DNA of 64,000 nucleotides, taken from the NCBI RefSeq assembly GCF_023501975.1, contig NZ_JAMFLH010000007.1:62001-126000 (forward strand). Reading direction: 5' to 3'. Positions 33,734-44,748 of this stretch are shown one piece after another (position 1 is the stretch's first letter; the number at the start of each line of letters is the position of its first letter). The notes under the pieces are model-generated. The model made no database searches and was not told where the DNA came from. It saw nothing but the letters and a program-made list of their open reading frames with translations. The translations under genes were made by a program, and so were the position numbers. This stretch comes from Altererythrobacter sp. KTW20L (GTDB taxonomy: Bacteria; Pseudomonadota; Alphaproteobacteria; Sphingomonadales; Sphingomonadaceae).

Positions 33734-33809
33734 GGACGCATAGCTCAGTTGGTAGAGCAGCTGACTCTTAATCAGCGGGTCCTAGGTTCGAGCCCTAGTG
33801 CGTCCACCA
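33734..33809 (+). tRNA. tRNA-Lys (anticodon CTT), integration target
   Basis: The 76 bases fold into a standard cloverleaf. The acceptor stem GGACGCA pairs with TGCGTCC, the D arm is GCTC...GAGC, and the anticodon stem GCTGA/TCAGC encloses the loop CTCTTAA (anticodon CTT, lysine AAG codon). The T arm is CTAGG/CCTAG with TTCGAGC, followed by discriminator A and an encoded CCA. Its 3' 45 bases are duplicated at 44704-44748. The intact gene therefore has a 3' half supplied by the element, as expected for tRNA-integrating islands. Confidence 0.96.
33765..33809 (+). repeat. Attachment site copy within tRNA-Lys (att, left)
   Basis: This 45-base copy starts at the first base of the anticodon loop (CTCTTAA) and runs through the encoded CCA. 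It is identical to 44704-44748; the bases flanking the two copies differ. It marks the tRNA-side boundary of the element and shows that recombination occurs in or downstream of the anticodon loop. Confidence 0.93.
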
Positions 33810-33838
33810 AATAATTCAGTCACTTAGACGAGATTTAG

Positions 33839-33862
33839 CCCCGCCCGACCGGCGGGGTTTTT
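33839..33862 (+). terminator. Intrinsic terminator just inside the element after tRNA-Lys
   Basis: CCCCGCC (33839-33845) and GGCGGGG (33851-33857) form a perfect seven-base stem around CGACC, followed by TTTTT (33858-33862). It lies 30 bases after the tRNA and inside the element. The island therefore supplies a terminator for the tRNA it occupies and insulates its cargo gene from tRNA transcription. Confidence 0.75.
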
Positions 33863-33866
33863 CGTT

Positions 33867-33886
33867 GGGGTAACACTTAGGGTAAC
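33867..33886 (+). repeat. Paired GGGTAAC repeats near the left end
   Basis: GGGGTAAC at 33867-33874 and GGGTAAC at 33880-33886 are spaced 12 bases apart. The same pair recurs near the other end at 44551-44569, in the same orientation. They are good candidates for integrase arm-type sites or excisionase (AlpA-like) sites. Confidence 0.5.
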
Positions 33887-33966
33887 AAAGAGTTTGCCGC
33901 AGGTATTCGAGAAAGCCTTGTTTGGCAGCCGCCATTGCCTCATTCTCTCCAGCGGGGGTGAAGGCC

Positions 33967-34584
33967 ATGGCAAACACAGATGCGCAGTCACAGATTTCGG
34001 GTGAAGGCGCACTCGGTCTATTTGGATTATGGGATTGGTGGAATAAAACCTTTACCGCCGATCAGAGAACGCGCGTTTTGGAGGAATACAATCCGTTCTT
34101 TTCTGATAGCGCTGCCTCGCCCTTAACAACCGGATATCCCAGTTTTGGGAGCGCTAGATATTTCCTTTCTAGCACAGCTATGTGGTTCAATAATCCGTCA
34201 GGATTTGAGATAGCCCTTAAGTTTATGGATAAAGCGCAGAGCTGTCCTATTAGCAGCCTCTCGTTGATCCGTTATCACTTTGACTGCATGGAGCGCATAC
34301 GCTTTTACTATCGGTGGCGAAGCGAATTGGATGGTGCCCTCCAGTCCGCCATAGAGGCATGTAAGGAGCAGATCGGAATTGCAGAAGATGTAGCGCGCCA
34401 GTTTCTCTTGGAAGACAATTACATTCCGCACCATACCGGATATGAACAACTCGCAATAATATACGAGAAGCAGAAGGATTTTCATTCTGCAATAGACCTG
34501 TGCGTGTTGGGGCAGTCTCAAGGATGGGCGAATGATTTTGAAAAACGGTTGTCTAGACTAAGAAAGAAAATCGCCTCAGCCTGA
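33967..34584 (+). CDS. Cargo protein of unknown function with TPR-like C-terminus
   Basis: This is the only element gene on the + strand, placed between the tRNA and the head operon. It is visibly AT-richer than its surroundings: 27 of 60 bases are G/C at 34201-34260. The ATG at 33967 has a GGGGGTGAAGG ribosome site and gives 205 residues; an in-frame start at 33922 is possible. The N-terminus is hydrophilic with aromatic residues (LFGLWDWWNK). The C-terminus (YEQLAIIYEKQKDFHSAIDL ... GWANDFEKRLSRLRKK) looks like one TPR-type helix pair. There is no signal peptide or membrane helix. An accessory role such as anti-phage defence is possible but unproven. Confidence 0.7.
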   Translation: MANTDAQSQISGEGALGLFGLWDWWNKTFTADQRTRVLEEYNPFFSDSAASPLTTGYPSFGSARYFLSSTAMWFNNPSGFEIALKFMDKAQSCPISSLSLIRYHFDCMERIRFYYRWRSELDGALQSAIEACKEQIGIAEDVARQFLLEDNYIPHHTGYEQLAIIYEKQKDFHSAIDLCVLGQSQGWANDFEKRLSRLRKKIASA

Positions 34585-34594
34585 TAAGCACGTC

Positions 34595-42550: not shown

Positions 42551-42735
42551 GCCGCCACCTCGCGCGAATTGATCCATTCGAGGATTTCGGCTTCACGATA
42601 GAAATTGCGGTTACGAATTTTGACAGGGCGAGGAAGGTTCAGCGTTTCGTCGCGCTGATACCGCCATTCTGTCATCGCGCTGATACCGCCTAGAAGCTCA
42701 CGAGCGTTCGCGGCAGTTATTAACTTGTTGGGCAT
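42547..42735 (-). CDS. AlpA-like helix-turn-helix regulator
   Basis: From the ATG at 42735, with GGAG nine bases upstream, the product has 62 residues. It has a winged-helix/MerR-like layout: NKLITAANARELLGGISAMTEWRYQ, then LPRPVKIRNRNFYREAEILEWINSR. The last part is the conserved AlpA/Xis ending in which a basic strand is followed by an I-x-x-W-I helix. AlpA-type proteins act as excisionase or as activators in P4-like satellites and PICIs. Confidence 0.82.
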   Translation of the reverse strand: MPNKLITAANARELLGGISAMTEWRYQRDETLNLPRPVKIRNRNFYREAEILEWINSREVAA

Positions 42736-42813
42736 GTCTGGGTCTCCGTTACAACTTGAGAGACCTCCTATTAAGAGCACCCCGCACAGGATTGCACGAC
42801 GACTTTTCAGCAA

Positions 42814-43284
42814 TTAAGCGTCGGAGTTTATTTCCGCTATGTAGGCGTCAAATTCGTCATCGGTCATAAACATGGCTTTGGCTGCGTCGCGATGGCTAGA
42901 GAATGCCTTCTGCTCCATATACTTCACCCGGTCGCTAACGGTTCGTGCACCGCAACCTATCTCCTTGGCGGTATCGTTAATGGCGCACGTCCTCATCCGG
43001 TCGCCCTTGTCCGCCAGCAGCCGCATATGCTTACAGAACGTGGCGTAAGTCCTTATCGCCTTGGCCAGCTTCAAATCCGGCGGGTCTTTTGGACGCTTGG
43101 CGGGCTTCACGTTTTCGCCAAGTATCTCATTAGCTAGCCAATCTCGTTCGAATTCGAACAACGCCACGGCTGGATCGCGCAGGCGTTCGGCCAAAATACT
43201 CGGGTCGCCACTTTTAGCGGCTTTTATTGCTTTATGGGCTGATACGGCGTTGGGGCCGATGATTTGTGAAATATCAATCGCCAT
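42814..43284 (-). CDS. Element protein with putative HTH, unknown function
   Basis: The ATG at 43282-43284 overlaps the integrase stop (ATGA) and gives 156 residues; a longer upstream frame lacks conservation. It is helical and basic in the middle (ENVKPAKRPKDPPDLKLAKAIR). It has a segment NDTAKEIGCGARTVSDRVKYM that looks like a helix-turn-helix. It could be a DNA-binding regulator or replication accessory protein. Confidence 0.65.
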   Translation of the reverse strand: MAIDISQIIGPNAVSAHKAIKAAKSGDPSILAERLRDPAVALFEFERDWLANEILGENVKPAKRPKDPPDLKLAKAIRTYATFCKHMRLLADKGDRMRTCAINDTAKEIGCGARTVSDRVKYMEQKAFSSHRDAAKAMFMTDDEFDAYIAEINSDA

Positions 43285-44534
43285 CACCCCGCCTCCGCCA
43301 GCCGCACAACATTGTCCGGCTTGCCTTCGACAAGCTCCATCACGAACCGGCCCCAAGCTTCCATCGCCTGCCGCTTTTCCGGCGCATAATCGTGGCGTTG
43401 ATACACCGATACAATCCCGGCAGCGGTCCCGGAAACATGATTGAGACAGGCTTCCGTCACGCGCACTGGAATTGCCAGCCGCGCCATTCCTGTTGCTGCC
43501 GTCCGCCGCAGATCGTGGAAGGTCCAGTGCGGTATCTCGACAGACCCCTTGCGGTCCATTGCGGCACCCTCTGTCATCTTGTCTTTCAGGCTGGCCAGCC
43601 CCTTTGCAAATCCAGACACTGGCGTCTTGCCGGTGGTGGTGAACACAAGGCCACTGCCTCCAACACGCGGAACACTGGCCAGCACTTCCAGCGCGGCAGT
43701 GGAAAGCGGCACGTCATGCGCCCGCCCATTCTTCACCCTATCGGCTGGCAAGCTCCACAGATCGCCCTCAATCTCGGCATAAGGCATTGCGGCAACCTCC
43801 TGCCGCCGCTGGCCTGTCAGCAATGACAGCTTCCCGAATGGCCCCCATGGATAGCCCGCCTTTTCGCAGGCTTGCCAGAACCAGCGGATTTCGTCGTCTG
43901 TCAACACGCGGTCGCGGGCAACCTCCTTCGCCACCGGCTTCACGCTGGCAGCGGGATTGATGGCAAGAATGTCGCGCTCCACACACCAGTTGAAAAACTT
44001 GCTCGCATAGGCCCGCACGCGATTTGCCGTGGTGACACGCCCGCTATCCGCAATCCCGTCCAGCAGGTCGATAACATCGCGCTTCGTGATTTCGTGAATG
44101 TCGCGGTCGCCCCATTTGGCGACAATGGATTGATCTAATGCGCGCCGCACTCCTGCCCCGCTGCGCAGCTTGGACAAGTGGCGCTTGTCGAATTGCTCGA
44201 CCAGCGTTTTCACCTTGTCTCGTTCGGTAAGCTGCGCCTCGCGCATATCAGCCTTGGCGGCCTTCTTTGCTATTGCCGGATTGTGGCCATGCTCGACCGC
44301 TTGGAGCGCATCAGTAGCGGCTGCGCGGGCATCGCCTACACCCATGACAGGCCAGCGCCCCAAGGTCAGCTTGGCGGGCTTGCCTGCGAACCGATAGCGC
44401 AAGGCCCAGCTCTTAGCGCCGCCCGGCTGCACCACGATATACAGGCCCGATAGCGCCGGGTCCGGCAGTTCAATCCGCCTGCCAGGGTCAGGCTTGATTG
44501 CCTCAACGCCCTTGGTCGTAAAGCCGCGCGCCAT
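43284..44534 (-). CDS. int: Tyrosine-type integrase, P4 family
   Basis: The ATG at 44532-44534, preceded by AGAGGAG at ten bases, gives 416 residues; a start at 44573 is less likely. The protein has the N-terminal DUF4102 arm-binding domain (TTKGVEAIKPDPGRRIELPDP, YIVVQPGGAKSWALRYRF) and a SAM-like core-binding domain. The catalytic domain has R in LLTGQRRQEV, HDLRR in TFHDLRRTAATGMARL, a conserved late H in CLNHVSG and the nucleophile in IVSVYQRHDY. It lies next to the right attachment site and is transcribed inward. P4-type integrases usually target tRNA genes, as here. Confidence 0.95.
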   Translation of the reverse strand: MARGFTTKGVEAIKPDPGRRIELPDPALSGLYIVVQPGGAKSWALRYRFAGKPAKLTLGRWPVMGVGDARAAATDALQAVEHGHNPAIAKKAAKADMREAQLTERDKVKTLVEQFDKRHLSKLRSGAGVRRALDQSIVAKWGDRDIHEITKRDVIDLLDGIADSGRVTTANRVRAYASKFFNWCVERDILAINPAASVKPVAKEVARDRVLTDDEIRWFWQACEKAGYPWGPFGKLSLLTGQRRQEVAAMPYAEIEGDLWSLPADRVKNGRAHDVPLSTAALEVLASVPRVGGSGLVFTTTGKTPVSGFAKGLASLKDKMTEGAAMDRKGSVEIPHWTFHDLRRTAATGMARLAIPVRVTEACLNHVSGTAAGIVSVYQRHDYAPEKRQAMEAWGRFVMELVEGKPDNVVRLAEAG

Positions 44535-44550
44535 AGTCAAATGCTCCTCT

Positions 44551-44596
44551 GGGGTAACGCTGGGGTAACACATTCAGGCGTTTTGGCCCGTTACCC
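44551..44596 (+). repeat. Paired GGGGTAAC repeats near the right end
   Basis: GGGGTAAC occurs at 44551-44558 and 44562-44569 (11-base spacing), with one inverted GTTACCC at 44590-44596. The pair matches the one near the left end (33867-33886). The location between integrase start and attachment site suits arm-type or excisionase sites that could also regulate int. Confidence 0.5.
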
Positions 44597-44703
44597 GGCG
44601 TTAGTATCAGAGCATAACAACAGCCGCAATAGCGCCTATTTCAGTAGGATACGGCGCTAAAGACGTTTTGATTAGTTAGGCGGCGATAGGGGGCTAAATT
44701 TGT

Positions 44704-44748
44704 CTCTTAATCAGCGGGTCCTAGGTTCGAGCCCTAGTGCGTCCACCA
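44704..44748 (+). repeat. Attachment site copy at the far end (att, right)
   Basis: This is an exact 45-base copy of the 3' part of tRNA-Lys (33765-33809), from the anticodon loop to CCA, without the 5' half of the gene. It is preceded by element DNA and followed by CCCTTTCCC of the host. It marks the distal boundary of the element. Confidence 0.93.

Follow-up and report, generated by a model that had tools for sequence, protein, structure and literature searches.

The 64,000-nucleotide stretch analyzed here, herein referred to as the window (Altererythrobacter sp. KTW20L, contig NZ_JAMFLH010000007.1, positions 62,001 to 126,000), contains an element of 10,939 bp, counted from repeat start to repeat start, inserted in a tRNA-Lys gene. 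This element is very probably an intact, mobile, capsid-encoding phage satellite that builds its own small HK97-type head and borrows the tails of helper phages. The evidence consists of the directly observed anatomy and boundaries of the element, the family to which it belongs, the narrow size range of that family, selection on the head genes, and the joint exchange of portal and adaptor.

Boundaries and Gene Content

Exact 45-bp direct repeats flank the element on both sides, as proposed by the original prediction, which was made from the sequence alone. The tRNA was the sole family matched in the Rfam scan. The integration site and the attachment (att) repeats are:

33734..33809, plus strand: intact tRNA-Lys(CTT), the integration site (ARAGORN; Rfam RF00005)
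33765..33809, plus strand: att repeat 1, the final 45 bp of the tRNA (repeat search)
44704..44748, plus strand: att repeat 2, an exact 45-bp copy of the 3' part of the tRNA (repeat search)

On the minus strand, the genes follow in the order integrase, open reading frame (ORF), AlpA-like regulator, two further ORFs, RepA-type AAA_25 protein, Hc1, terminase large subunit (TerL), HNH endonuclease, major capsid protein (MCP), protease, adaptor, and portal. The genes with assigned products are:

34595..35656, minus strand: portal protein, 353 aa (PF04860, E 2.2e-7, under the Pfam curated cut-off)
35656..36204, minus strand: head-tail adaptor of family type A, 182 aa (phrog_442, E 1.4e-4, a weak match)
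36192..36803, minus strand: HK97-type prohead protease, 203 aa (PF04586, E 2.8e-16)
36800..38071, minus strand: HK97-type MCP, likely start ATG 38071, frame open to 38089 (PF05065, E 2.3e-14; TIGR01554 over cut-off)
38073..38420, minus strand: HNH endonuclease, 115 aa, packaging-associated by position (PF01844, E 2.5e-6; phrog_144)
38411..40039, minus strand: TerL, 542 aa (PF03354; phrog_9, E 2.1e-53)
40036..40398, minus strand: head closure/stopper protein Hc1, 120 aa (phrog_161, E 8.2e-7)
40577..41812, minus strand: RepA-type hexameric helicase/replication protein, 411 aa (PF13481, E 5.1e-33)
42547..42813, minus strand: AlpA-like excisionase/regulator, 62 aa from ATG 42735 (phrog_66, E 3.2e-5, no Pfam match)
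43284..44573, minus strand: tyrosine integrase with arm-binding domain, 429 aa (PF13356, PF22022, PF00589)

Matches to PHROGs, Pfam, and NCBIfam thus bore out the predicted integrase, AlpA-like regulator, RepA-type helicase, and HK97-type head and packaging set. Tail, lysis, and CI-type repressor genes, which the prediction had reported missing, were likewise not among the families of these three libraries matched by the window proteins. Its statement that nearly all genes overlap held for most neighboring pairs, 9 of 12 with the longest starts (hand count) or 8 of 12 with the likelier starts (MCP at 38071, the AlpA-like gene at 42735, and the second ORF at 43284).

Portal and adaptor, both weak by library match, recur at steady positions in relatives: a profile seeded with the window portal finds a portal in 143 of 160 relative loci, and an adaptor of the window type was found in 68 of the 160. 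The predicted fold of Hc1 resembles phage and gene transfer agent (GTA) stoppers, every E-value being above 0.001. The fold model of the MCP is poor (predicted local distance difference test score, pLDDT, 55) and matched phage capsids and encapsulins with low TM-scores; the helical N-terminal region of this protein is perhaps a scaffold (delta) domain.

The traits of capsid-forming phage-inducible chromosomal islands (cf-PICIs) present in the element include chromosomal integration with an integrase and flanking att repeats; its own MCP, prohead protease, portal, and head-tail connectors (the portal below the Pfam cut-off, the adaptor weak); its own TerL and HNH endonuclease; an AlpA-like regulator (weak) and its own replication gene, a RepA-type helicase (strong). 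Tail and lysis genes were unrecognized in it.

A Separate Family in Alphaproteobacteria

Stretches matching the window MCP were found 184 times among the IMG/VR viral contigs, and 184 stretches in one-genome-per-species prokaryote contigs matched a 19-row profile; 80 of the 184 loci were fetched from each collection. The 80 prokaryote loci belong to Rhodobacterales (61), Hyphomicrobiales (9), Sphingomonadales (3), and Hyphomonadales (3), three have no order, and one is a metagenome-assembled Oceanospirillales. Rhodobacter capsulatus (DSM 1710, L139) and Ruegeria pomeroyi (L125) are among the hosts, and the head gene set of the window element recurs in the relatives. Related elements in Sphingomonadales, whose search the original prediction had proposed, were found: among 396 genomes of the host's order, four, including the window's, scored above 700 bits with the capsid profile, and the 17 other matching genomes scored at most 62.5 bits, with no intermediate scores. 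Two members, including the window's, were seen in 385 genomes across the class.

No match for the portal was found among 50,697 phage records. The MCP had eight weak matches among these records, at most 28.5% identical, and TerL, a conserved enzyme, matched 111 of them, at about 30% among the matches listed. In 72,556 plasmid records, the sole close match was a 1.58-Mb replicon of Pseudorhodobacter, and one Acinetobacter plasmid matched weakly. The Pseudorhodobacter replicon (NZ_CP039965.1, Pseudorhodobacter turbinis, an unannotated record) has MCP and portal matches at two places, near 396 kb and 1.2 Mb.

Judged by these sequence matches, the element belongs to a widespread, sharply separate family in alphaproteobacteria. 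The element predicted in this sphingomonad is real, and the finding is larger, a family across the class and not a single case. A literature search did not find a description of this family; prior description in the two main cf-PICI papers is possible. Alphaproteobacterial capsids may already be among the 900 cf-PICI capsids, all published, on which PMC13230959 draws.

Size and Content of Delimited Relatives

In total, 44 elements (43 relatives and the window's) are delimited by repeats at a tRNA. They measure 9.37–11.73 kb, with a median of 10.25 kb, are inserted in 12 kinds of tRNA, and all contain TerL, MCP, and portal. The repeat is at least 20 bp long in 28 of the 43 relatives (elements of 9,367–10,894 bp); the other 15 delimitations are weaker because they are based on exact matches of only 14–19 bp. 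The flanks fetched with full-length loci could have shown elements of about 20 kb. In nine loci longer than 20 kb, the set used shows no repeat at a tRNA; two of them, L163 and L167, have other repeats, 11.3 and 9.9 kb apart. A 14-bp match spanning 8.06 kb in L174 was left unused, and L059 and L100 were excluded from A1 for a stop inside the joined match.

The non-core ORFs of the 43 relatives include excisionases, stoppers, adaptors, replication initiators, primases, and helix-turn-helix proteins (143 of 192 ORFs scanned, at most three per cluster; 97 ORFs shorter than 75 aa skipped). The 143 ORFs matched 120 families in one scan and 37 in another, and the 25 commonest in each include no tail or lysis family. 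Two small conserved proteins, c6 (75 of 160 loci) and c8 (64 of 160), are encoded mostly upstream of TerL; their representatives had no significant PHROGs or Pfam match, and they are candidates for an unrecognized packaging or regulatory part.

The HK97 shell is T=7 and holds about 40 kb. Scaled from it, a T=3 shell would hold about 11 kb, and the head of the element may well be T=3. If the satellite reading is true, satellites of the capsid-forming kind occur widely among alphaproteobacteria, and elements of about 10 kb that vary so little in length offer a system in which the size of the shell and the limits of packaging can be measured.

Selection on the Head Genes and Candidate Sites

All head genes are under purifying selection. 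Against the relative L112, the ratios of nonsynonymous to synonymous substitution rates (dN/dS) were 0.054 for portal, 0.067 for TerL, 0.086 for MCP, 0.118 for protease, 0.152 for adaptor, 0.277 for HNH, and 0.323 for Hc1, with some of the genes overlapping and some dS values against other relatives near saturation. The small genes, including the two facing the tail, therefore evolve faster by this measure.

Three groups of short repeats were found:

33865..33887, plus strand: two GGGTAAC repeats at the left end, likely integrase arm-binding sites (role inferred)
44549..44596, plus strand: three GGGTAAC repeats, two direct and one inverted, at the right end, likely integrase arm-binding sites (role inferred)
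40502..40603, no strand: iteron-like cluster with the palindrome CCCCTAAAGGGG, candidate replication origin (motif count; layout of L034)

The motif GGGTAAC occurs seven times in the window, and five of these copies belong to the element and lie no more than about 155 bp from its two att repeats (no shuffle control); from this placement they are likely arm sites of the integrase. The iteron-like cluster contains, within 40502–40600 and adjoining CCCCTAAAGGGG, 10 of the 14 GTCACG sites present in the element. A matching layout occupies the matching place in L034, but with GGGAC repeats and CCCCTTAAGGGG; the position of the CCCC..GGGG palindrome and the iteron-like repeats upstream of Hc1 is thus kept there and the repeat letters differ. 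L112 has GTCACA-type repeats upstream of Hc1, and no such layout was seen by eye in L036. Its arrangement makes the cluster a likely replication origin, and a packaging site is possible.

Exchange of the Portal-Adaptor Vertex

The order TerL-HNH-MCP-protease-portal, which inverts the usual phage order, was found in 137 of the 138 loci that have MCP, TerL, and portal. The sole exception, L133, is a circular contig cut within the portal gene. An adaptor of one of two types was recognized in 132 of the 138 loci (six have neither type, none both): type A in 63, between protease and portal as in the window, and type B in 69, of which 68 have it upstream of TerL. The gene for the window type of Hc1 precedes TerL in 14 loci, separates TerL from HNH in 7, and follows the portal in 2.

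For the trees, the 138 loci were reduced to 118 distinct capsid rows, including the window's, and then to the 115 elements that matched the protease and whose adaptor type is known. Changes of adaptor type number 15 on the tree built from MCP, 7 on that of TerL, 6 on that of the protease, and 2 on that of the portal; with shuffled labels (20 shuffles), about 38 changes were counted. A single type A clade is rejected by the MCP data (approximately unbiased test, p-AU 2e-35). Portal and adaptor therefore travel together and have been recombined against the shell. Fitting of the vertex to more than one kind of tail would lead to such joint exchange, and the exchange likely reflects fitting to the tails of different helpers; ordinary recombination without such selection is possible. 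With a vertex that separates from the shell, the matching of satellite heads to tails of foreign origin becomes open to direct testing.

A fuller version of this reading has, in our estimate, slightly less than an even chance of being right. It holds that these elements form a separate lineage across the alphaproteobacterial class, in which the shell is constant, the portal-adaptor cassette is exchanged and re-targets the head to other helper tails, the stopper is freely placed, and some members are circular plasmids without integration.

Two relatives from Gemmobacter bear on the last point. The contig of L122 (Gemmobacter serpentinus, 10,436 bp) has an exact 96-bp terminal overlap, giving a circle of 10,340 bp, and that of L133 (a metagenome-assembled Gemmobacter genome, 10,234 bp) has an exact 141-bp overlap, giving a circle of 10,093 bp. 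The title of the L122 contig states a coverage of 941. Neither the family's own profile nor a Pfam scan of ten ORFs, which did not cover every small ORF, revealed an integrase in either of them. By their ends and gene content, both look like satellite-plasmids.

Proposed Life Cycle and Points Against It

From this anatomy we infer induction, origin, packaging, and the use of helper tail and lysis functions as follows. The element would reside in tRNA-Lys and, once a helper phage is active, would be excised by the integrase and the AlpA-like factor. The RepA-type helicase would replicate it from the iteron-like region. Its own MCP, protease, and portal would build the small HK97-type head, its own TerL with HNH would load the DNA, and its own adaptor and Hc1 would seal the head. 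Since no tail or lysis gene was recognized in the element, a helper siphophage would supply both, giving chimeric particles.

Several observations count against this account. Helper, induction, particles, and tail use are all unobserved. In the host genome, PF10145 and PF13550 were unmatched and the only PF05065 capsid is the element's own (three families tried), so that no resident helper was seen. The terminase small subunit (TerS) was unrecognized among the window ORFs in PHROGs, Pfam, and NCBIfam. TerS is frequently too divergent for recognition. The HNH protein also matches, through its HNH part, phrog_4581, a PHROG called small terminase, and one of 73 ORFs, nearly all from relatives, weakly matches a TerS family (E 0.0013). 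The AlpA-like assignment is itself weak, and the early region is not shared, since the AlpA-like cluster was found in only 6 and the RepA cluster in only 9 of the 44 delimited elements. A stopper was recognized in 53 of the 138 loci (23 of the window's kind, 30 of another); the others therefore have an unrecognized stopper or none, and the window element has one.

Genomes of the same genus yielded no clean empty site. Left flanks from nine of them (13 loci, some at the same place) align up to the exact end of the tRNA, and the right flank does not continue in these loci. A genome of this genus (G400, contig C17) has extra partial 3' copies of tRNA-Lys near 3,991 and 60,995, which suggests further islands at this tRNA.

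The last point against is the presence of a tape-measure-like fragment in L172 (the same element as L110), the only tail-like gene placed. In 73 ORFs lying mostly downstream of the portal, the window's included, three tape-measure families matched one ORF each (among 25 of 37 families). In a search of 35 host genomes, phrog_8892 and phrog_10574 both matched a 243-aa ORF of L172 (13602–14333), which resembles the C-terminal part of a phage tape measure protein and among the loci occurs otherwise only in L110, as an identical copy. Every other match of these two families in the 35 genomes lies in an open frame of at least 605 codons, longer than all ORFs called in the delimited elements except TerL. 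The third family, phrog_19914, was not traced to a particular element.

The 35 genomes with delimited relatives also bear on the supply of tails: 17 of them have a match to one of the two tape-measure families outside the element (no satellite-free control genomes), and phage or GTA tails are therefore often at hand. With the Hc1 profile, 7 of the 396 genomes of the order had a match. The best match outside the satellites (E 1.3e-9) was on a phage-like contig of the satellite-bearing genome G337. Its Hc1 is 32% identical to that of the G337 satellite (E 2.6e-11) and 23.5% to that of the window (E 0.54); as a single case, this likeness is a hint only. The contig (C33; L251, L252) is 34,170 bp long and siphophage-like, its other genes having been judged by eye.

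Alternative Explanations

The element might be a virus that needs no helper, lacking a tail but having an HK97 head and an entry route of its own. It has its own replication, head, and packaging genes and several unassigned ORFs, and the stopper is unrecognized in 85 of the 138 relatives. Adaptor and stopper close the head and join it to a tail. The window element retains both, no lysis gene was recognized, its length is about 10 kb, and one relative carries the tape-measure-like fragment; we regard such a virus as very unlikely. Satellites often interfere with their helpers, as far as the literature consulted describes, and the element could be a defence-like island whose head proteins hinder helper assembly while the element itself goes unpackaged. 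Against this, the packaging set is under selection, the narrow length range points to packaging of the element itself, and the five ORFs tried in PADLOC gave no match; this, too, is a very improbable explanation.

A prophage in decay or shortened by deletion, with its tail and lysis modules gone, would account for the phage-like nature of most genes and for a tRNA site, as in many prophages. The reduced gene set, however, recurs between its own repeats in the 44 delimited elements, which occupy 12 kinds of tRNA, the portal was found in no tailed phage among the 50,697 phage records and the MCP matched them weakly, scores across the 396 genomes had no intermediates, and the head genes are under purifying selection. 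The lack of close head-gene relatives in longer tailed phages, together with recurrence, size range, and selection, led us to reject this candidate, whose probability we consider minimal. The original prediction had also judged the element not to be a decayed prophage and had named longer, tail-bearing close relatives as the contrary finding; the delimited elements measured 9.4–11.7 kb instead.

The use of host GTA tails rather than phage tails by the Rhodobacterales members, suggested by type B adaptors about 30% identical to g6 of RcGTA and by a GTA stopper among the nearest folds of Hc1, was tested and not supported by profile scores, and is extremely unlikely: the more strictly rebuilt c11 profile (Hc1 of type B members) scores non-GTA prophage-like stoppers at 57–63 bits vs. 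19–52 bits for GTA g7, one prophage-like adaptor reached 80 bits vs. 50–81 bits for GTA g6, and the type A profiles (ad1 and hc1, the window's kind) match none of the GTA or prophage-like loci. The window host itself probably has no GTA, because no other PF05065 capsid was found in it.

Comparison with Known Systems

A satellite reading being preferred, cf-PICIs are, by likeness of description and not of cf-PICI sequences, the closest system in function and anatomy. As summarized in PMC10690885, they encode their own MCP, protease, portal, head-tail connectors, TerL, and HNH and no tail, and the window element shares this set and the integrated state. It differs in lacking a recognized TerS, in the family median of 10.25 kb compared with a cf-PICI average of 14 kb (given in PMC10803314), in host class, in gene order relative to ordinary phages, and in the exchanged vertex of the alphaproteobacterial family. 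The description as capsid-forming PICI-like holds in that the element would work like one; membership is unproven, because TerS is unrecognized, helper and tail use are unobserved, and the comparison is by description only. Putative tape-measure genes are marked in some cf-PICIs in a figure legend of PMC12987554, and PMC12846349 describes a structural tree in which the capsid of an Escherichia coli cf-PICI falls together with that of the R. capsulatus GTA.

The circular Gemmobacter elements resemble cf-PISP TG54 of Vibrio crassostreae, described in PMC13230959 as a satellite-plasmid of 15.8 kb with ParA/RepA and a tyrosine recombinase: all are circular, capsid-encoding, tail-less, and apparently kept as plasmids. 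TG54 differs in length and host, 15.8 kb in Vibrio vs. about 10 kb in alphaproteobacteria, and its authors, in the portion of their text consulted, report episomal elements of this kind only from Vibrio. The Streptomyces satellites MulchRoom and MiniFlayer also have their own capsid and packaging genes; according to the account in PMC10690885 they have virulent helpers, terminal repeats, and no obvious replicases, whereas the window element has its own replication proteins and tRNA integration.

Families or folds of the MCP, protease, TerL, adaptor, and stopper are shared with HK97-type siphophages and RcGTA. The order differs: the phage-like contig of G337, by eye, reads TerL-portal-MCP-adaptor-stopper-tail, and the element reads TerL-HNH-MCP-protease-adaptor-portal with no tail. 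Canonical PICIs and P4-like satellites, as far as partial descriptions go, share the integrase, the AlpA-like regulator, and the small size. They use or remodel helper capsids, whereas the window element encodes its own.

Other Open Reading Frames of the Element

The remaining ORFs are:

41784..42326, minus strand: ORF of 180 aa with a weak DUF3323 match (E 7.6e-4, under cut-off)
42377..42577, minus strand: ORF of 66 aa, conserved in L112
42814..43356, minus strand: ORF of 180 aa, likelier start 43284, no family match
33922..34584, plus strand: ORF of 220 aa (205 aa from ATG 33967), possible cargo (phrog_22434, unknown function)

The last of these occupies the left end, where the original prediction had named no gene. 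Its guanine-cytosine content is 48%, compared with 60% for the element, and it is possibly recent cargo.

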